From Winogradskyella ludwigii (GTDB lineage: Bacteria > Bacteroidota > Bacteroidia > Flavobacteriales > Flavobacteriaceae), in contig NZ_JABFDF010000001.1 in the NCBI RefSeq assembly GCF_013403985.1, positions 558,001 through 622,000 on the forward strand: 64,000 nt of DNA. The letters are read 5' to 3'. The notes beneath the pieces are model-generated. The model was not told where the DNA came from and did not search any database. It was given only the letters and a program-made list of their open reading frames with translations. Both the position numbers and the translations under genes were made by a program. Numbering within the stretch: the first letter of the stretch is position 1; each line of letters starts with the position of its first letter. Positions 6,735 through 63,879 of the stretch are shown here, piece by piece.

Positions 6735-8198
6735 TTATTTCTGTAATTGTTTTAAATACTCTTGAATAATTTTATAATCATCAAAATCAAAGCGTTCTCC
6801 CTTAATTTCTTGGTAATTCTCATGCCCTTTACCTGCAATTAGAATTATATCTTTTGGTCCAGCCATTTGGCAAGCCGTTTTAATCGCTTGTTTTCTATTT
6901 GTTATAGACAACGTCTTTTTAAAATTCAAAGGTTCAACCCCTTTCTCCATGTCTTCTATAATAGTTTCAGGCACTTCATTACGCGGATTATCGCTTGTAA
7001 AAATCACTTTAGTACTTAAAGCCGAAGCTATATGCGCCATTTTTGGTCGCTTTGTTTTATCCCTATTTCCACCACAACCCACAACCGTAATTAGTTCTTC
7101 ATTTTTAGTTCTGATATCATTTATGGTTTGCAATACATTTTTTAATGCATCTGGTGTGTGTGCATAATCTACAATCGCGGTAATTTGCCCTTCTGAGATA
7201 AAATACTGAAAGCGTCCTGCTACATTTTCGAGCTCACTTATTAATCTTAGAATTTCATCTTTTTCTAAACCTAACAATTCAGCCGTTCCGTAAATAGCCA
7301 AAATATTGTAAGCATTAAAACTTCCAATTAATCGTGTCCACAATTCACTATCATTTACCTTTAATAACAAACCGCTAAATTCATTTTCTAAAATCTGCGC
7401 TCTGTAATCGGCATAATTTTTTAAGGCATACGTATATTTTTTGGCTGCTGTGTTTTGAAACATTACCAAGCCATTTTTATCATCGATATTGGTTAGCGCA
7501 AAAGCCTCTTTTGGCAACTGATCAAAAAACAATTTCTTAACATCTCTATATTCAGCAAACGTATCGTGATAATCTAAATGATCATGAGACAGGTTGGTGA
7601 AAATTCCGCCTTCAAACTTTAAACCTTCAGTTCTACTCTGATGAATTCCGTGCGAACTCACTTCCATAAAGCAGAATTCAACACCTTCATCATTCATCAA
7701 CTTTAAATATCTATTGATAGTTAAAGAATCCGGTGTGGTATGTGTTGCTTTATAAGTGGTATTATCTACCATGATTTTTACAGTAGACAACAACCCAACT
7801 TTGTAACCTGCTTTTTTAAATAATTGATACAACAAACTCGAAACCGTTGTTTTCCCGTTTGTCCCTGTCACTCCAACGAGTTTTAAATTCTCAGAAGGAT
7901 GACCATAAAAATTAGCTGCCATATAAGCCAAAGCTTTATTTGAACTCTCTACTTCAATATATGTAATATTGTCGTGAAGGTTTTCTGGAAGCGTTTCACA
8001 AACAACCGCTGTAGCTCCATCTTTAATTGCTTTTTCTATATAACTATGACCATCTGAAATAACACCAGTGATAGCCACAAACACGTCATTCTCTTTTATT
8101 TGACGGGAATCAAACTCAACTCCACCAATAGTAATATTAGTGCTGCCAACGACTGCATTAATAGTAACCTTATATAATATGTCTTTTAATATCATCAT
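6735..8198 (-). CDS. murE: UDP-MurNAc-tripeptide synthetase MurE (meso-DAP type)
   Basis: Adds the third stem-peptide residue to UDP-MurNAc-L-Ala-D-Glu. The 487-residue protein has the ATP loop GTNGKTT (about 110) and the substrate motif DNPR (in SDNPRNEVP). DNPR is the signature of meso-diaminopimelate-adding MurE, so the wall is predicted to be DAP type. Two adjacent ATG codons (8198 and 8195) could start it; the first gives a 4-bp ATGA overlap with ftsI. Confidence 0.97.
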   Translation of the reverse strand: MMILKDILYKVTINAVVGSTNITIGGVEFDSRQIKENDVFVAITGVISDGHSYIEKAIKDGATAVVCETLPENLHDNITYIEVESSNKALAYMAANFYGHPSENLKLVGVTGTNGKTTVSSLLYQLFKKAGYKVGLLSTVKIMVDNTTYKATHTTPDSLTINRYLKLMNDEGVEFCFMEVSSHGIHQSRTEGLKFEGGIFTNLSHDHLDYHDTFAEYRDVKKLFFDQLPKEAFALTNIDDKNGLVMFQNTAAKKYTYALKNYADYRAQILENEFSGLLLKVNDSELWTRLIGSFNAYNILAIYGTAELLGLEKDEILRLISELENVAGRFQYFISEGQITAIVDYAHTPDALKNVLQTINDIRTKNEELITVVGCGGNRDKTKRPKMAHIASALSTKVIFTSDNPRNEVPETIIEDMEKGVEPLNFKKTLSITNRKQAIKTACQMAGPKDIILIAGKGHENYQEIKGERFDFDDYKIIQEYLKQLQK

Positions 8199-24679: not shown

Positions 24680-24707
24680 AAAAAAAGTAGTTTAGTTAAA
24701 AAGGAAA

Positions 24708-24733
24708 CCCTCGTAAAAATTAATTTACAAGGG
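24708..24733 (-). terminator. Possible terminator or attenuating hairpin between the two POT genes
   Basis: CCCT.GTAAA (24708-24717) pairs with TTTAC.AGGG (24724-24733) with one internal mismatch. It lies 19 bp after the upstream POT stop. On the minus strand it is followed by a weak TTTCCTTTTT tract, so termination may be partial. Confidence 0.45.
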
Positions 24734-24751
24734 ATTATTATTAATTATTTT

Positions 24752-26314
24752 TTAATTCTCTGCTAATTCGAAACCTTCGGCTTCTTCTGTATGCATTTCA
24801 ACTTCATTATCTTCTGCGCCATGAGTTAATCGTTTAAGAGGTTTCAACAATGCAATTACTAAAAGACCAAAGGTAACGGTGAAGATTACAATACCTGTAA
24901 AGATCGCATATTCTCCAAAGCTCTCAGATTTCTCTCCTAAGATTCCTGCTACTTTACCTCCAAGACCTGTTGCTGCAAAGTATAATCCCATCATTAATGA
25001 TGCGTATTTTACTGGTGCTAATTTTGTAACAAATGATAAAGACACAGGCGAAGAACATAATTCTCCTATAGTATGAAATAAATAGGCTAAAACTAACCAT
25101 TGCATTCCTGAGCTTCCATTTGCTTCATATTCTCTTACTGCAAAAATCATAAACACAAAACCTAGACCCATAATAATAGTACCTGTTGCCATTTTAAATA
25201 ATGAAGAAGCTTCTTTATTTTTTAGTTTACGTTTTGCCCAAATATTTGCAATCCATACGGCAAGTAATATAATAAACCCAGCATTTAACCCTTGAAACAT
25301 TGGTGTTGGCACTAACCATCCAAACAACATTCTGTCTGTTTTCTGTTCGGTATAAACACTCATTAATCCACCTGCTTGCTCAAAAGCTCCCCAAAACACG
25401 ATGACTAATAAGAATGATAATAACAACACAAGGAAACGATCTTTTAGTACTTGAGTCTCTAAGCTTTTAAATATCATCATCATTAACCCAACAACAAAAG
25501 AAAGGAATATAAACAACGCTCCATAACCCCAATGATCTACACCTTCTTTTGTAAAACCTATATATATTGAAAATGCTAGTAACGCTACAAAAATTGCTAA
25601 TTGCATTGGTGATTTAAAAATATTCGAAAATATTTTCACTATAGAAACATCATCTTTTTTCTCTTCAACTGTTGGTTTATTTCCAACGTGTGTAATATAT
25701 TTTTGTCCAAAGATATAAACTATCAGTCCAAATAACATTGCAATACCAGCCAAACCAAAACCAGCATGCCATCCCCATTTTGCTACAACAATACCTATAA
25801 TTGAAGTGGCTAATAAGGATCCTAGATTTATTCCGATATAAAAAATTGAAAATCCTTTATCTCTTCTAATGTCTCCTTTCTTATACAAACCACCAACCAT
25901 TGTAGAAATGTTTGGCTTTAAGCAACCAACTCCTAAAATGATTAATCCTAAACCTACAAAGAATGCCCAAGGCGCATCGATTGCCAATGTACCATGGCCT
26001 AAAACTAGAATAATAGCACCTAGCATAACCGTTTTTTTCTGCCCTAAAACCTTATCTGCTAAAATACCTCCGGGAATAGAAACCACATAGACTAACATTA
26101 CATACCAACCATATAATTGGTACGCTTCTAGCTCTGTCCAACCTAAACCAGGACCATCTTTATGATTGGCTTGTGCAATCATATAGATTACAAGTAAAGC
26201 TCGCATTCCATAATAAGAAAAACGCTCCCACATCTCTGTAAAGAATAAAACATATAGACCTATTGGATGCCCAAATAGTTCTTTTTGATGCGGTTGTTTG
26301 ATCGTAGTTGACAT
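24752..26314 (-). CDS. POT-family peptide:H+ symporter
   Basis: Standard-length (520 residues) proton-dependent oligopeptide transporter of the inner membrane. It has EMWERFSYYG (27-36), GGILADKVLG after the first helices, GVGCLKPNIS and the C-terminal FHTIGELCSSPVSLSFVTKL signature. It is clearly paralogous to the gene at 22559 but lacks that protein's insert. Downstream of dipeptidyl peptidase IV it probably takes up the dipeptides released outside the membrane. Confidence 0.93.
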   Translation of the reverse strand: MSTTIKQPHQKELFGHPIGLYVLFFTEMWERFSYYGMRALLVIYMIAQANHKDGPGLGWTELEAYQLYGWYVMLVYVVSIPGGILADKVLGQKKTVMLGAIILVLGHGTLAIDAPWAFFVGLGLIILGVGCLKPNISTMVGGLYKKGDIRRDKGFSIFYIGINLGSLLATSIIGIVVAKWGWHAGFGLAGIAMLFGLIVYIFGQKYITHVGNKPTVEEKKDDVSIVKIFSNIFKSPMQLAIFVALLAFSIYIGFTKEGVDHWGYGALFIFLSFVVGLMMMIFKSLETQVLKDRFLVLLLSFLLVIVFWGAFEQAGGLMSVYTEQKTDRMLFGWLVPTPMFQGLNAGFIILLAVWIANIWAKRKLKNKEASSLFKMATGTIIMGLGFVFMIFAVREYEANGSSGMQWLVLAYLFHTIGELCSSPVSLSFVTKLAPVKYASLMMGLYFAATGLGGKVAGILGEKSESFGEYAIFTGIVIFTVTFGLLVIALLKPLKRLTHGAEDNEVEMHTEEAEGFELAEN

Positions 26315-57005: not shown

Positions 57006-59813
57006 CTAATTTTTGATATTTAACAAATAATCGACTAAAGAAATATCATTTTCTAAATCTAACTTCTTTTTTAATCGATATCGATGTGTTTCGACCCCTC
57101 TAACTGAGATATTCATAAGTGGAGCGATTTCTTTAGAGGAAAGATTCATTTTGATGTAGGCACAAATCTTCAAATCTTTAGGAGTGAGTGCAGAATGTTT
57201 AGCTTTTAAAGTTTCGAAAAATTCATCGTGAACTTGACTAAAATTATTTTCAAAAACCTCCCATTCGTCTTTTAAGACAATTGAATTATCTAATTTCTTT
57301 ACAATCTTTTTGTAAGAATAATGATTATTAAATCCTTCTTTGTTTACCATCAAATCATTTTTGATATCTTGAAGTGTCTCATTTTTCTTAACCAAGGCCA
57401 TAGCATTATTTGCTAGTTGCTTACTTTTTAATTTAATCTCATTTTGTAAGGATTCATTTTTAAGCTGAACAATATGTTTTTCATTCTCTAAAGTTTGTTC
57501 TCTAAGTAATTTTTGTTGTTCCTTTTGATATTTGATTTTTATTAAACGTTGTTCTTTTGCTATTTTCTTATGGTGAAGCGTATAAAATATAAATATAATT
57601 AAACACGCGAAAAGGAAATACAAGACATAACCAGCTGTATCTCTATACCAAGGTGGATAAACCTCTATATGCAATAATTTAATTGGAGATGCATTACCTG
57701 CATTATCGCTCGTTCTAAACAGCATGTTATAATTACCATCTGTAAGATTGGAAAGTTCAACCTTATTACCATCTATCCCGTACCACAAACTATCATTAAC
57801 CTCATCGTCTGCTTCTATAACAATATATTCGAAATGATGATTTAGCGATTTTGAAGATGACAATTCTACAGCTAAACTTTCTTTAAAATCAAAACCCAAC
57901 CCGTCGGACTCTATATTATTAATAGCAATAAGGTTTCCACTAATATTAATGGACTCAACGATTGGCTTATGTAACTCAATATTAGCATTCGATGTGCTAT
58001 TGACAAGCATAAAGCCATTGTCTAAATTTAAAGCATAAACAGAATCACTAAGTTTAGATACATTCTCATAGCCAACGATATATCTATTTTTAAGAAACAC
58101 ATCATTTAAAAAAAAGTCTTTATATGGATCATCAAAAGATGTGAATTTTATAAATCCTCCTTTGTTTTTTAGAGCAAAAAGTTCCGTATCATCTTCTGAA
58201 ATAATATAACTATTTTCACCTAGCCTTTCATTAAGTAAATCATAAGGAATAATGGAATCTAAAATAGGTTCATAACGTTGCCAACCTTCATTCGTTTTAA
58301 AACTTATATTATTTCTAATATTATAAACGCGCACATTAAAATTAGAATTGATGCCTTTATCTTGATAATTCTTCACTGAGGTTATTGTATCATAATTCGC
58401 ATCAAAATGTAATTTAGAAACCCCTTTTGTTGCATGAGCGACCCAAGCTGTCGTTGGATTTTCAAAAACTAAGAATCGTGAGGGAATTGTAGTTTCACCT
58501 AGGTATTTCACATTCCATTTCCCCGCAACTTTCTCAAACTTTACCAAACCAGAATACGTTCCTTGTATATAGGTTTGTTCTGTTTCTGGAACTTTTTTAA
58601 TTGTCCAACCTCCAGTATAATTAGATATTAACGTTAGTTTGTCTTTATCTACAATAAAGGTTCCTTCATTATGACCACAGAATAACTCCCCTTCTACAAT
58701 TTCTAAATCCCAAACCTGCCCTTGAGAGCCCTCTATAAAATTTAAGTTTTGATTTTTATCTAATCTAAAAAGCCCTGTATTGGTTCCTACATAAATATCA
58801 CCTTTATAGTTTACAACATCATATACAGCACCTAATTTACCTGACACATCATTAAAAAAGTAATTTAAACTATTAAGCTCAATGTTAGCAATACCATTAT
58901 CCAAACCTAACCAAAGGTTATCTGTATCATCTAAAAATTGTCCTAAAACGGTATTATTAAACAGTCCATTTTCTTTACTAATGTGATATTTAAGGTCACC
59001 ATTTTTATCGGTTAAAAAAACACCGTCTTTTATAGTCCCAAAAACCATATCGCCATTTCTTAATATAGAAAACGTGTTTAATTGGTGTAATCGGATTTGA
59101 TTATTAATACTAAAACCAGTTGGTGTTAATTTTTTATTCTCTAAAAAATAACTTCCTTTTAAAGAGGTCATTAACAAGAGTTTTCCATTATAATTATTGA
59201 TAGAGACAATTTTAGTATCTAATAACGCTTCGTTAAAATAAAAAGGCTCTAAGGTTTTATCTTTCAATAAAAATATACCTTCATTTAAAGTACTTATAAA
59301 TAAATCATTTTCTATAACACTACATGAAATAATAACAGATTCAGGCCTTAATTGTATTACACTTTCAAAATCGTAGACATATATATTTAAGAATGATCTA
59401 AAGATAATTTTATCATCAAAGCTTACAATCTCCCATATTTCTTCATTAGGAGAAATAACATCTAATATAGTATCACTTAATGAATGATAATTTAGAGATC
59501 CAAATTTATCGCGCTCCCAGTAACCAAACTCTTCATAAGACCCTGTGTAAACCATATCATTTACTGCCAATACTGATCGTACAATGGTAGTATTGGGTAA
59601 TTGATGAAATTTCCAAATTAAACCATCATACTCTAATAAACCACTATTATTAGCCACATAAACTTTACCATCATCTGCTCTAGTAATATCCCAGTTTTGG
59701 TTACCAGCCTTATATTCTGCTAAGGTGTAATTATGTATACTTGGCGCAAATTGACCATAGCATTGCGTAGCATATAACAGACAGAAGGTAAAAACGACAA
59801 ATAGTTTATTCAT
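57006..59813 (-). CDS. Membrane-anchored sensor/regulator: beta-propeller, Y_Y_Y and LuxR-type HTH
   Basis: A 935-residue one-protein signalling system: signal peptide (about 1-20), a long periplasmic propeller region (about 30-620), a Y_Y_Y domain (about 630-722), one membrane helix (729-746), a cytoplasmic coiled coil (about 750-825) and a LuxR/GerE helix-turn-helix (about 876-925, LTPKDLKICAYIKMNLSSKEIAPLMN). Unlike hybrid two-component regulators of Bacteroides it has no histidine kinase or receiver. It probably senses an oligosaccharide in the periplasm and controls the adjacent susC operon. Confidence 0.88.
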   Translation of the reverse strand: MNKLFVVFTFCLLYATQCYGQFAPSIHNYTLAEYKAGNQNWDITRADDGKVYVANNSGLLEYDGLIWKFHQLPNTTIVRSVLAVNDMVYTGSYEEFGYWERDKFGSLNYHSLSDTILDVISPNEEIWEIVSFDDKIIFRSFLNIYVYDFESVIQLRPESVIISCSVIENDLFISTLNEGIFLLKDKTLEPFYFNEALLDTKIVSINNYNGKLLLMTSLKGSYFLENKKLTPTGFSINNQIRLHQLNTFSILRNGDMVFGTIKDGVFLTDKNGDLKYHISKENGLFNNTVLGQFLDDTDNLWLGLDNGIANIELNSLNYFFNDVSGKLGAVYDVVNYKGDIYVGTNTGLFRLDKNQNLNFIEGSQGQVWDLEIVEGELFCGHNEGTFIVDKDKLTLISNYTGGWTIKKVPETEQTYIQGTYSGLVKFEKVAGKWNVKYLGETTIPSRFLVFENPTTAWVAHATKGVSKLHFDANYDTITSVKNYQDKGINSNFNVRVYNIRNNISFKTNEGWQRYEPILDSIIPYDLLNERLGENSYIISEDDTELFALKNKGGFIKFTSFDDPYKDFFLNDVFLKNRYIVGYENVSKLSDSVYALNLDNGFMLVNSTSNANIELHKPIVESINISGNLIAINNIESDGLGFDFKESLAVELSSSKSLNHHFEYIVIEADDEVNDSLWYGIDGNKVELSNLTDGNYNMLFRTSDNAGNASPIKLLHIEVYPPWYRDTAGYVLYFLFACLIIFIFYTLHHKKIAKEQRLIKIKYQKEQQKLLREQTLENEKHIVQLKNESLQNEIKLKSKQLANNAMALVKKNETLQDIKNDLMVNKEGFNNHYSYKKIVKKLDNSIVLKDEWEVFENNFSQVHDEFFETLKAKHSALTPKDLKICAYIKMNLSSKEIAPLMNISVRGVETHRYRLKKKLDLENDISLVDYLLNIKN

Positions 59814-59914
59814 GTTATTAAAATACCAAAATTTATGATAATAATTAAATTAACGACTCACTTCCCATAAGAAAAAACACAAGTAAAGCACCACATCCTA
59901 TTGAGACAAACACA

Positions 59915-59922
59915 CAAATATA
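59915..59922 (-). promoter_or_regulatory. -7 promoter element of the LuxR-type regulator
   Basis: TATATTTG on the minus strand is an exact TAnnTTTG match, giving a leader of about 95 nt before the regulator ATG at 59813. No -33 at ideal spacing. The remaining 59923-60005 holds nothing I can support. Confidence 0.45.
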
Positions 59923-60005
59923 AAAGAATACCACCAATGAAATTTCCTAGATAATGTCTTAAAATAGAAACATTCTTGAAAACAAGCATTTAAACCATTA
60001 GAAAT

Positions 60006-60036
60006 TTTGATGTCACAAAATAAATTATAACCTTTG
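60006..60036 (+). promoter_or_regulatory. Promoter of the ilv leader and operon
   Basis: TTTG (60006-60009) and AACCTTTG (60029-60036, 7 of 8 matches to TAnnTTTG) are 19 nt apart, the same spacing as the tRNA-Phe promoter. Transcription would start near 60041, only a few bases before the leader ATG, so the leader could be read with almost no 5' UTR. Confidence 0.5.
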
Positions 60037-60045
60037 GTTTACAAT

Positions 60046-60120
60046 ATGAAAAAATACGTCATTAATATTATATCTATAATTCGCATCGAAATTATTTCTC
60101 GAAGTCAAGGAAAGCTATAA
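60046..60120 (+). CDS. ilv operon leader peptide (8 Ile in 24 codons)
   Basis: A 24-codon frame, ATG 60046 to TAA 60118-60120, encodes MKKYVINIISIIRIEIISRS plus four more residues. Eight of its codons are isoleucine, all within residues 6-17, with one valine and one leucine. The codon right before the stop region overlaps the antiterminator sequence. Such a peptide upstream of ilvD has no obvious use except as a ribosome-borne sensor of charged tRNA-Ile. It is too short to be picked up by routine gene calling. Confidence 0.8.
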   Translation: MKKYVINIISIIRIEIISRSQGKL

Positions 60121-60154
60121 TAAAAATAAAACATAAATTTATTTCAAGCCTTCC
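60109..60154 (+). promoter_or_regulatory. Antiterminator pairing of the ilv attenuator
   Basis: GGAAAGCT (60109-60116), the last codons of the leader, can pair with AGCCTTCC (60147-60154) in 7 of 8 positions. The latter is the 5' arm of the terminator, so the two structures exclude each other. A ribosome at the leader stop would cover the first strand; one stalled at the earlier Ile codons would leave it free. Confidence 0.65.
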
Positions 60155-60175
60155 AGTAATTCGGAAGGTTTTTTT
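60146..60175 (+). terminator. Attenuator terminator of the ilv operon
   Basis: CCTTCC (60149-60154) pairs with GGAAGG (60163-60168) over an 8-nt loop, extended by a G-U and two A-U pairs, and runs into seven T (60169-60175). It stands 26 bp after the leader stop and 173 bp before ilvD, so it would stop transcription before the structural genes. The remaining 60176-60348 holds only a 6-bp AACCTA/TAGGTT hairpin (60219-60238) and a weak -7-like AATTTTTG (60328-60335). Confidence 0.85.
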
Positions 60176-60348
60176 GTACAAAATAAAATTTTGAACATCA
60201 TAATTAATACACTCTAAAAACCTAATAAACAATAGGTTATACCAATCACACAACAATTGAATTTAGATTAATTATTATTATCCTTTTACTAATACTATAC
60301 ATATAAAGTAATTTAGACATTGCAAATAATTTTTGCCAAAATAAAACT

Positions 60349-62028
60349 ATGAGCGAATTAAATAAATACAGTAAAACAGTTACTCAAGATCCAACGCAAC
60401 CAGCTGCTCAAGCCATGTTGCATGCCATTGGATTGACTAAAGAAGATTTCTTTAAACCTATTGTAGGAATTGCAAGTACAGGTTACGAAGGTAACCCTTG
60501 TAACATGCACCTTAACGACTTAGCTAAACTAGTTAAAGAAGGCACAAAAAACGAAGATGTTATTGGTTTAATCTTTAACACTATTGGTGTTAGCGATGGT
60601 ATTTCTATGGGAACACCTGGAATGCGTTACTCACTTCCTTCACGAGATATAATTGCAGATTCTATGGAAACCGTAGTACAAGCTATGAGTTACGATGGAT
60701 TAGTAACTGTTGTAGGTTGCGATAAGAACATGCCAGGAGCTTTAATTGCAATGATTCGTTTAGACAGACCGAGTATTTTGGTTTATGGTGGCACAATAGA
60801 TTCAGGTTGTCACAACGGAAAAAAATTGGATGTTGTTTCGGCTTTTGAAGCATGGGGAAGCAAAGTTGCTGGAACCATGGACGAAACAGAATATCAAAAC
60901 ATTGTTGAAAAAGCCTGCCCTGGAGCTGGTGCTTGTGGAGGAATGTATACTGCAAACACAATGGCTTCTGCTATTGAAGCTTTAGGAATGACTTTACCTT
61001 TCAACTCTTCCAATCCTGCATTAAGCGACGCTAAGAAAGAAGAATCAATAAGAGCCGGAGAAGCTTTACGATTATTATTAGAAAAAGATATAAAACCCTC
61101 AGATATTATTACTAGAAAGTCTTTAGAAAATGCCGTGAGATTAGTCACCATTTTAGGTGGTTCTACAAATGCAGTCTTACACTTTTTAGCAATTGCTAGA
61201 GCTGCTCAAATTGATTTTACATTAAAAGATTTTCAAGATATTAGTGATAATACACCCTTTTTAGCCGATTTAAAACCAAGTGGAAAATACCTTATGGAAG
61301 ATGTTCATGCTGTTGGAGGAATTCCTGCTGTATTAAAATATCTTTTAAAGAAAGGCTTAATTCATGGAGATTGTTTAACCGTTACAGGAAAAACAATTGC
61401 AGAAAACTTATTGGACGTTCCAGATTTAAAAGCAGGACAAGATGTTATAAAACCTATAGAAGAGCCTATTAAAATTTCAGGACACTTAAGAATGCTTTAC
61501 GGCAACTTAGCTACAGAAGGTAGTGTTGCAAAAATAACAGGCAAAGAAGGTTTATGCTTTAGAGGTAAAGCCAAAGTATTTGAAGGAGAATATGCCGCAA
61601 ATGATGGTATTAGAGATGGATTAGTTGAAAAAGGCGATGTTATTGTTATTAGATATGAAGGCCCAAAAGGTGGACCAGGAATGCCAGAAATGCTTAAACC
61701 AACTGCTGCAATAATGGGAGCTGGCTTAGGTAAAGATGTCGCATTAATTACAGATGGCCGTTTCTCTGGAGGAACTCACGGATTTGTTGTTGGCCACATT
61801 ACACCAGAAGCTCAAGAAGGCGGTACAATTGCCGTTGTAAAAGATGGTGACATTATTACTATTGATGCAGAAACGAATTCAATATCACTTGAAGTATCAG
61901 AAGTAGAACTTCAACGAAGACGTCAAAAATGGGAAGCACCTGCTTTAAAATTCAAACGTGGTGTGCTTTATAAATATGCAAAAACCGTTTCATCTGCATC
62001 AAAAGGATGTGTAACAGATGAATTCTAA
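60349..62028 (+). CDS. ilvD: Dihydroxy-acid dehydratase IlvD
   Basis: Iron-sulfur dehydratase making 2-keto acids for valine and isoleucine synthesis. The 559-residue protein has cluster and Mg2+ site motifs [12 protein letters not shown] and [15 protein letters not shown], and the C-terminal [15 protein letters not shown]. Standing first in the operon, before ilvB, is common in Bacteroidota. Expression is predicted to be set by the Ile-rich leader upstream. Confidence 0.97.
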
Positions 62029-62117: not shown

Positions 62118-62134
62118 TTCCCATTTCATGGGAA
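62118..62134 (+). promoter_or_regulatory. Hairpin at the ilvB translation start
   Basis: TTCCCAT (62118-62124), loop TTC, ATGGGAA (62128-62134) forms a perfect 7-bp stem. It buries an in-frame ATG (62128) and a purine run GGGAAG, leaving the second ATG (62143) outside. It may set which start is used or modulate ilvB translation. Confidence 0.5.
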
Positions 62135-62142
62135 GTAAAAAC

Positions 62143-63879
62143 ATGAAAGAAACTCAAACCATAGAAAACCAAACTAAAAGTTCAGAAACTACAGAACGTA
62201 TTTCTGGAAGCGAAGCTGTAATCAAATGTTTATTAGCTGAAGGTGTTGATATTTTATATGGATATCCTGGTGGAGCAATTATGCCAGTTTATGACGAATT
62301 ATATAAGTATCAAGACAAAATTCATCACGTCTTATCTCGTCATGAGCAAGGAGCAGCACACGCTGCCCAAGGTTACGCTCGTATTTCTGGAAAAGTTGGT
62401 GTTGCTATAGCGACTTCTGGCCCAGGTGCAACCAATTTAATTACTGGTATTGCAGATGCACAAATAGACTCTACTCCTTTGGTCTGTATTACAGGTCAAG
62501 TAGGATCACATTTATTAGGGAGTGACGCCTTCCAAGAAACGGATATTGTAGGTATTTCTACACCTGTTACTAAATGGAATTGTCAAGTTACAAAAGCATC
62601 TCAAATCCCTGAAGCTTTAGCAAAAGCATTTTATATTGCTAGAAGTGGACGGCCAGGACCTGTTTTAGTAGATATAACTAAAGATGCTCAGTTTGAAGAA
62701 TTCGATTTTAAATACGAAAAATGTATTGGAGTAAGAAGTTATAAACCCGTTCCAAATACCGATGAAAATTCATTAAAATGTGCAGCAGAACTCATTAATA
62801 ATGCAAAAAAACCATTAATAGTTTGGGGACAAGGTGTTATTTTAGGAAAAGCCGAAGAAGAATTTAAAGCCGTTATTGAAAAAGCAGGTATTCCTTCTGC
62901 TTGGACCATTTTAGGAGCTTCTGCGATTCCTACATCTCATCCTTTAAATGTAGGTATGGTTGGTATGCATGGTAATTATGCACCAAACGTTTTAACCAAT
63001 GAGTGTGATGTATTAATTGCTATCGGAATGCGATTTGATGATCGTGTTACAGGAAATTTAGAATCTTATGCTAAACAAGCTAAAGTGATTCATTTTGATA
63101 TAGATCCTGCAGAAATAGATAAAAATGTAAAAACAGATGTAGCCGTTTTAGGAAATTCTAAAGACAGCTTAAAGAAGCTTTTACCTCTATTAAATACAGC
63201 GTCTCATAGTGAGTGGCATCAAAAATTCAAGGATTTGTATGCCATAGAATACGAAAAAGTAATAAAAGACGATTTACATCCTACAAAAGAAGGCTTAACC
63301 ATGGGAGAAGTGTTGAAAGAAATCAACCTTCAAACCAAAGGAGATGCTGCAATCGTTAGTGATGTTGGTCAGCATCAAATGATTGCTTGTCGTTATGCAG
63401 AATTCAACAAAACCAAAAGTAATATTACGTCTGGTGGCTTAGGAACTATGGGATTTGCATTACCTGCAGCTATTGGAGCAAAAATGGCAGCTCCAGATCG
63501 TGAAGTTGTTATGATTGCTGGAGATGGTGGTTACCAAATGAATATTCAAGAATTAGGAACCATTTTTCAACAAAAAACACCTGTTAAAATTGTGGTACTA
63601 AATAACGAGTTCCTTGGGATGGTTCGCCAATGGCAACAACTATTTTTTGACAAACGTTATGCATCTACAGAAATGGTAAACCCAGATTTTGTTGCCATTG
63701 CAAAAGGTTATCATATTGAAGCACAAAAAGTATCTGAACGAAAAGATTTAAAAGCTGCGGTAAAAGAAATGATAGACTGTGAAGGGCCTTATTTCTTAGA
63801 AGTTAGAGTAGAAAAGGAAGGCAATGTATTTCCTATGATACCAACAGGAGCGAGTGTTTCAGATATAAGACTGGAATAA
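62143..63879 (+). CDS. ilvB: Acetolactate synthase large subunit IlvB
   Basis: ThDP enzyme joining pyruvate with pyruvate or 2-oxobutyrate, the shared first step to valine/leucine and isoleucine. From ATG 62143 it has 578 residues: YGYPGGAIMPVYDEL with the catalytic Glu in RHEQGAAHAAQG, FDDRVTG in the FAD/middle domain, and the ThDP motif from GDGGYQMN to VVLNN. An upstream ATG (62128) would add five residues but lies in a hairpin; either start is possible. Confidence 0.96.
   Translation: MKETQTIENQTKSSETTERISGSEAVIKCLLAEGVDILYGYPGGAIMPVYDELYKYQDKIHHVLSRHEQGAAHAAQGYARISGKVGVAIATSGPGATNLITGIADAQIDSTPLVCITGQVGSHLLGSDAFQETDIVGISTPVTKWNCQVTKASQIPEALAKAFYIARSGRPGPVLVDITKDAQFEEFDFKYEKCIGVRSYKPVPNTDENSLKCAAELINNAKKPLIVWGQGVILGKAEEEFKAVIEKAGIPSAWTILGASAIPTSHPLNVGMVGMHGNYAPNVLTNECDVLIAIGMRFDDRVTGNLESYAKQAKVIHFDIDPAEIDKNVKTDVAVLGNSKDSLKKLLPLLNTASHSEWHQKFKDLYAIEYEKVIKDDLHPTKEGLTMGEVLKEINLQTKGDAAIVSDVGQHQMIACRYAEFNKTKSNITSGGLGTMGFALPAAIGAKMAAPDREVVMIAGDGGYQMNIQELGTIFQQKTPVKIVVLNNEFLGMVRQWQQLFFDKRYASTEMVNPDFVAIAKGYHIEAQKVSERKDLKAAVKEMIDCEGPYFLEVRVEKEGNVFPMIPTGASVSDIRLE

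Follow-up and report, generated by a model that had tools for sequence, protein, structure and literature searches.

The region described here lies in a window of 64,000 nt (the whole stretch of DNA that was analysed), in the intergenic gap between a divergent gene of 935 codons and ilvD. Its features are the following:

57006-59813, minus strand: divergent gene of 935 codons
60005-60036, plus strand: putative promoter P1, composed of TTTTG (60005-60009) and a -7 box AACCTTTG (60029-60036), from direct reading, near-consensus only
60046-60120, plus strand: leader peptide frame of 24 codons with eight Ile, from direct reading and comparison of ten close leaders
60109-60116, plus strand: antiterminator strand GGAAAGCT at the last leader codons, from covariation with the terminator 5' arm in relatives and from folding
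60146-60178, plus strand: intrinsic terminator (-11.5 kcal/mol) with 5' arm 60146-60154 and 3' arm 60163-60171, followed by a T-tract
60191-60345, plus strand: block conserved in 19 aligned loci, probably a second promoter/operator (P2) outside the attenuator, with the motifs TTGAACATCAT (60191-60201), TTGAATTTAGATT (60257-60269), GTAATTTAGAC (60308-60318) and AATTTTTG (60328-60335)
60349-62028, plus strand: ilvD, dihydroxy-acid dehydratase, the gene behind the putative attenuator (TIGR00110 ilvD, above the NCBI cut-off)
62128-63879: gene for the acetolactate synthase large subunit, next after ilvD (TIGR00118 acolac_lg, above the NCBI cut-off)

The leader frame starts with the ATG at 60046, ends with the stop codon TAA at 60118-60120 and reads MKKYVINIISIIRIEIISRSQGKL, with eight Ile, one Val and one Leu. 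It was compared among ten close leaders (nine of the window's genus plus L003, Winogradskyella psychrotolerans), for which codons were counted from the full frames. All ten have exactly 24 codons and each contains five to nine Ile, which supports the claim of the original prediction that the leader is read mainly by isoleucine. Third codon positions vary most among the ten (0.285 versus 0.17), a pattern as in a translated frame; the leader is probably translated. With 8 of 24 codons for Ile, this short frame is enriched in codons for an end product of the pathway.

An intrinsic terminator with a stem of nine pairs (60146-60171) and a loop of 8 lies between leader and structural gene, 25 bases past the leader frame, and termination would be expected near 60178. 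One terminator was found, compared to a mean of 0.1 in shuffles. When the gap (59814-60348) was subjected to 2000 dinucleotide shuffles, a terminator appeared in one of them and an Ile-containing short frame before a terminator in none. The predicted arrangement, a 24-codon leader with eight Ile codons followed by a rho-independent terminator (60146-60175) in front of ilvD, was confirmed, the terminator as the above stem plus T-tract. Scanning both strands of the whole window gave no other clear amino-acid leader besides the ilvD unit; the remaining rows (n = 3) were overlapping frames that all precede the same weak hairpin (minus strand, 24705-24822).

Further units were searched for in 80 ilvD loci of named genomes, which were the best 80 among the matches listed, closest relatives being favoured; entire loci were scanned on both strands. 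With a loose filter, 51 loci had 62 upstream units between them, compared to 6 units downstream of or inside ilvD and 17 on the opposite strand. Under the strict filter, chosen after the loose-filter results were seen, all 51 units, spread over 44 loci, lay upstream of ilvD in the same orientation; neither the downstream side nor the opposite strand yielded any. Four curated loci (L003, L011, L012 and L046) fail the strict filter and were counted in the final set of 70 units in 62 loci, which is made up of 55 units from 48 of the best 80 loci, 14 units from 13 loci of a genome search, and the window. According to their labels, the unit-bearing loci belong to Flavobacteriaceae, Chryseobacterium, Saprospiraceae, Chitinophaga and relatives, Cytophagales and one Ignavibacteriae assembly. 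Among eight loci labelled Flavobacterium, seven carry the unit. One locus, L040, is labelled Thalassovita, an alphaproteobacterium; its ilvD is 67% identical to that of the window and has a unit, and the assembly is possibly mislabelled.

Leaving the window aside, 61 loci bear a unit; in 22 of them it is located 900-1400 nt ahead of ilvD, and a frame of 284-318 codons sits in between in 20 of those 22. The intervening gene was a class IV aminotransferase in 7 of 7 tested and above the ilvE_I cut-off in 3 of 3 tested. The unit therefore belongs to the operon start rather than to ilvD in particular. This position bears on the alternative that the hairpin is an ordinary terminator, serving an independent small RNA or a small protein, and does not regulate ilvD. 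Although the short frame could encode a small hydrophobic peptide, the unit is found at the operon start, ahead of ilvE where ilvE comes first; the strict filter finds no unit on the opposite strand or after ilvD; and the unit's end covaries with the terminator arm, as described below. We consider this alternative very improbable.

Over the 70 units, Ile accounts for 28% of the residues, Val for 13% and Leu for 6%. Ile exceeds Val in 55 units, Val exceeds Ile in 10, and Leu is above both in none; because the units were picked by their Ile/Leu/Val content, only the split between these three is informative. Judged by codon content, the signal is essentially Ile in the window, and Ile and Val in the relatives.

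The last leader codons had been proposed to pair with the terminator 5' arm at seven of eight positions, and direct reading confirms this for GGAAAGCT (60109-60116) and AGCCTTCC (60147-60154). The same helix appears upon folding of the RNA cut after the terminator 5' arm. Relatives keep the pairing despite differing terminator arms (CCTTCC, CCTGTATC, CCATTCC, CCTCCC, CTCCCTTC), and across them an antiterminator strand competes for the terminator 5' arm. For the first arm swap, seven of 42 matches were set aside by eye beforehand (L021 at -434, L023, L027, L029, L042 at -538, L064 and L080; duplex energies +1.0 to -8.0), and one alignment of units took 32 of the remaining 35. These 35 units had a mean of -10.4 kcal/mol with their own arm versus -7.1 kcal/mol when swapped, and 0 of 20000 swaps were as good. 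The same was seen for 27 units from other loci (-12.3 versus -8.7 kcal/mol; 0 of 20000) and for the 45 of the 70 units that were used in the distinct-arm tests, one per distinct terminator arm (0 of 50000).

Since swaps could reflect the base composition of the genomes, a second control shuffled the strand inside each unit. None of 300 composition-keeping sets reached the observed mean of the 45 units, 30 of which had p-values of 0.05 or less singly. Taken by itself, the antiterminator of the window gives a borderline p-value of 0.047 against shuffles; the strong case for it comes from the relatives. Swapping within the genus gave a weak result (516 of 20000 swapped sets were as good) because the arms hardly differ there, and the own arm was the best or within 1 kcal of the best in only 18 of the 45 units. 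For a protecting 1:2 pairing of the trp type, the mean of the 45 relatives was beyond 300 shuffle sets; singly, this applied to 13 of 45, and the window had a p-value of 0.72.

A ribosome has its leading edge some 13 nt past the start of its A-site codon. Over the 70 units, the antiterminator strand starts a median of 14 nt past the start of the last Ile/Val codon preceding it (13-15 nt in 40 units), which agrees with this leading edge, whereby sequence relatedness also sharpens the peak. Relative to the first base of the stop codon, the antiterminator starts between 18 nt before and 10 nt after. Stalling was simulated for a ribosome at any of the eight Ile codons with the RNA ending at 60157, and the antiterminator pairs tested formed with a probability of 0.91-1; with the ribosome at the stop codon, the terminator had a probability of 1.0. 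Spacing and simulation are thus both in line with a geometry in which an Ile stall frees the antiterminator strand and a ribosome at the stop codon covers it. Once the RNA is complete, stalls from Ile codon 11 onward leave the terminator stronger than the antiterminator, and in 63 of 70 units the antiterminator hairpin is the less stable of the two. The terminator is the more stable fold and, therefore, the decision must fall during transcription; such a kinetic choice between folds is usual for attenuators. Ribosome-free RNA gave the antiterminator with 0.89-0.97 when cut at 60157 and the terminator with 0.99-1.0 when complete. As ribosome-free RNA also forms the antiterminator, the window shows no built-in off state or protecting hairpin that would act without translation.

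With anatomy, conservation, covariation and geometry established computationally, the element is, with high confidence, a ribosome-mediated transcription attenuator; it serves ilvD and probably also the genes behind it. The attenuation logic set out in the original prediction finds support in relatives, where leader, antiterminator and terminator are conserved. In the proposed mechanism, RNA polymerase would start at P1, a few bases ahead of the leader ATG, and a ribosome would enter the 24-codon leader close behind it. Given ample charged Ile-tRNA, the ribosome would arrive at the stop codon and cover the antiterminator strand, the terminator would form and transcription would end near 60178. 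When Ile-tRNA is scarce, the ribosome would stall on one of the eight Ile codons with its leading edge short of the antiterminator strand. The free strand would then capture the terminator 5' arm while the 3' arm is still unsynthesized, and the polymerase would read on into ilvD. Both the stalling and this direction of the response to Ile shortage are predictions from the sequence.

The -7 box AACCTTTG of P1 matches seven of eight positions of the flavobacterial TAnnTTTG and ends nine bases before the ATG; an exact TAnnTTTG is absent from the plus strand of the 3-kb locus around the leader. A TTTG is present 4-10 nt ahead of the leader ATG in nine of the ten close leaders including the window, and L101 is without it. 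In Flavobacterium psychrophilum, the -7 box was mapped at -12 to -5, with the last G at -5 (PMC9723704). If this spacing holds, the transcript in the window would begin near 60041, with five bases preceding the ATG; under the same assumption, the 5' ends of the close leaders would lie about 0-6 nt ahead of the ATG. Leaderless mRNAs make up 5.5% in F. psychrophilum (PMC9723704), and about 3.7% of the 5' UTRs of Bacteroides thetaiotaomicron are shorter than 10 nt (PMC7366714). A very short 5' end is not general, since the box is 18-22 nt away from the ATG in the seven Flavobacterium units and a TTTG within 45 nt is lacking for 12 of the 62 units that are single or first in a pair. From the original proposal of a flavobacterial promoter with almost no RNA before the ATG, the short 5' end is supported by the ten close leaders, and the box has to be described as near-consensus, not exact.

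A terminator preceding a biosynthetic operon could also belong to a metabolite-binding riboswitch or a T-box. The leader frame, however, takes up 75 of the approximately 105 bases of predicted RNA before the terminator, and there were no Rfam matches at gathering score either at the units of 18 loci or in the window from 59800 to 60400. Rfam leader families stayed below the gathering threshold in this part of the window, the best being Phe_leader with 26.2 bits versus a gathering score of 55. A riboswitch or T-box sharing the terminator is accordingly regarded as extremely improbable. A match to Flavo-1 RNA (Rfam RF01705) was observed in L014 at 7036-7151, downstream of the Aquimarina ilvD locus. 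Bacteroid-trp (Rfam RF01692), which presumably concerns trp genes, going by its name, has no match in the window stretch or the 18 loci. It is likewise a cis-regulatory RNA motif of Bacteroidetes (PMC2864571).

Sixty genomes were searched (the own genome included) and an ilvD match was obtained in 30, of which 23 belong to the window's genus. The leader is directly before ilvD in nine of these 23 (window included) and further up in three (L102, L103 and L105). No unit was found in the stretch scanned at the ilvD locus in 11 of the 23; hence, the unit is dispensable. Genus members without a leader before ilvD are L083, L085, L088, L090, L092, L093, L096, L097, L098 and L100. By direct reading, L098 has an apparent degraded terminator remnant, which makes loss within the genus possible. 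As to the proposed check for conservation in relatives, leader, terminator and covarying antiterminator are kept across relatives, and the unit is missing from the scanned stretch in those 11 genomes.

The stretch that separates the terminator from ilvD contains a block of about 155 bases, which is kept in 19 aligned loci. Ten of these have no leader; conversely, L101 has the leader and no block. The block carries TTGAACATCAT and repeated TTTAGA motifs, and there is no predicted RNA structure for 60191-60345. Its first motif is exact only here, the ilvD site being the sole exact match to TTGAACATCATAATTA in the own genome. Allowing up to three mismatches, TTGAACATCATAATTA gave 148 and 111 sites in the own genome versus 112 and 115 for the reversed-pattern control, and no regulon was found. 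Among the five sites with one mismatch (L113-L117), three were displayed (L113, L114 and L117) and look like coding sequence by eye. The block probably represents a promoter P2 with protein-binding sites. With P2 between terminator and ilvD, the attenuator may control only part of the ilvD transcription, and if P2 is strong, it would tune only the share coming from P1. A promoter downstream of the terminator, which had been named beforehand as an argument against the attenuator, is a live possibility, as the block is kept in genus members that lack the leader.

This leads to the alternative that the attenuator is real and ilvD is mainly driven by P2, the attenuator contributing a minor Ile-responsive share or decaying in the genus. 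It is compatible with the best explanation as to the nature of the element, and we give it somewhat less than an even chance. Besides the conservation of the block in loci that lack the leader, it is favoured by L090, L092 and L093, which have an insertion between the TTTTG box and the ATG with the box retained, and by the remnant that L098 seems to retain. Against it, the window retains an intact leader, antiterminator and terminator, the close leaders uniformly keep their 24 codons, and L101 shows that the leader occurs without the block. Moreover, in 12 other loci (L030, L032, L049, L061, L068, L069, L071, L073, L074, L076, L078 and L079) a gap of 11-45 nt separates the end of the last terminator from ilvD, leaving little room for another promoter there.

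Two complete units are present in eight loci (L006, L007, L014, L030, L033, L034, L054 and L105). The second ATG follows the first terminator after 15-22 nt in seven of them and after 64 nt in L105. A -7-like box within the preceding 45 nt was found for none of the eight second units versus 37 of 62 first or single units. The doubled units are most simply read as two attenuators in series; if so, stalling must occur twice for the operon to be read.

Other amino-acid leaders were looked for in the own genome. A His-rich leader MTSIQFHHHFHLIVQTR followed by a terminator is found before hisG (L122), and a Tyr/Phe-rich leader MNISRAYYNWFYFFFS followed by a terminator before pheA (L127); both are probable attenuators. 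No leader was found within up to 1.5 kb ahead of two HMGL-like genes (L120, L121) or of the chorismate-binding genes L125 and L126. The stretches scanned for L123 (homoserine dehydrogenase, frame running off the locus) and L124 begin inside the gene.

A broader reading, to which we assign an even chance, is that much of the Bacteroidota shares an Ile/Val attenuator design outside Rfam. Its antiterminator would start about one ribosome edge (13-15 nt) past the last Ile/Val codon, some lineages including that of the window would be near-leaderless, and several lineages would have two serial units behind one promoter. Shine-Dalgarno sequences are absent in flavobacteria (PMC9723704). The data indicate that classical attenuation, best known from enterobacteria, may be a common route of Ile/Val sensing in Bacteroidota, where Shine-Dalgarno sequences are absent; the principle is a textbook one, but little work exists on this bacterial branch. 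This raises the question of how a ribosome loads fast enough on an RNA starting about five bases before the start codon to match the polymerase. The wide spread, the possible near-leaderless start and the serial doubling are worth following, and natural comparisons are offered by the doubled units, the absence in about half of one genus and the probable second promoter.

Vitreschak et al. 2004 (FEMS Microbiol Lett 234:357) reportedly mention amino-acid attenuators in Bacteroidetes/Chlorobi in their abstract. For F. psychrophilum, an outline report gives strong signs that amino-acid operons are preceded by leader-peptide attenuators, with conserved 5' elements before pheA and hisG (PMC9723704). 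F. psychrophilum belongs to the same family, and pheA and hisG also have leaders in the present genome; 'ilv' does not occur in the main text of that report, supplementary tables aside (PMC9723704). This mode of control is thus not new to the family, and the earlier statement that no example had been described in this group fails. In B. thetaiotaomicron, leader-like short frames occur in long 5' UTRs; this case differs in that the example is a hypothetical gene, and 'ilv' is absent from the main text (PMC7366714). The ilvB leader peptides of Corynebacterium, Mycobacterium and Streptomyces likewise combine runs of Ile/Val/Leu codons with a terminator before ilv genes, but their codon runs overlap the terminator, the mode was unclear in Streptomyces and they belong to another phylum (PMC1262725). 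The tandem attenuators of Salmonella mgtCBR also have two short frames in one leader and are relevant only to the doubled units; signal and genes are different (PMC3641672).

A literature search with little reach into subscription journals found no ilv attenuator described in Bacteroidota. The enterobacterial ilvGMEDA and ivbL leader attenuators have a short leader rich in branched-chain codons and a mutually exclusive antiterminator and terminator before the ilv genes. The present element is alike in both respects. Unlike the enterobacterial system, its predicted 5' end in the window would be about 5 nt from the ATG, with no room for a Shine-Dalgarno site, and the protecting 1:2 pairing appears singly in the above 13 of 45 relatives and not in the window. 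Further differences are that the present units read Ile and Val, with Leu being scarce, and that their antiterminator strand overlaps the end of the leader.
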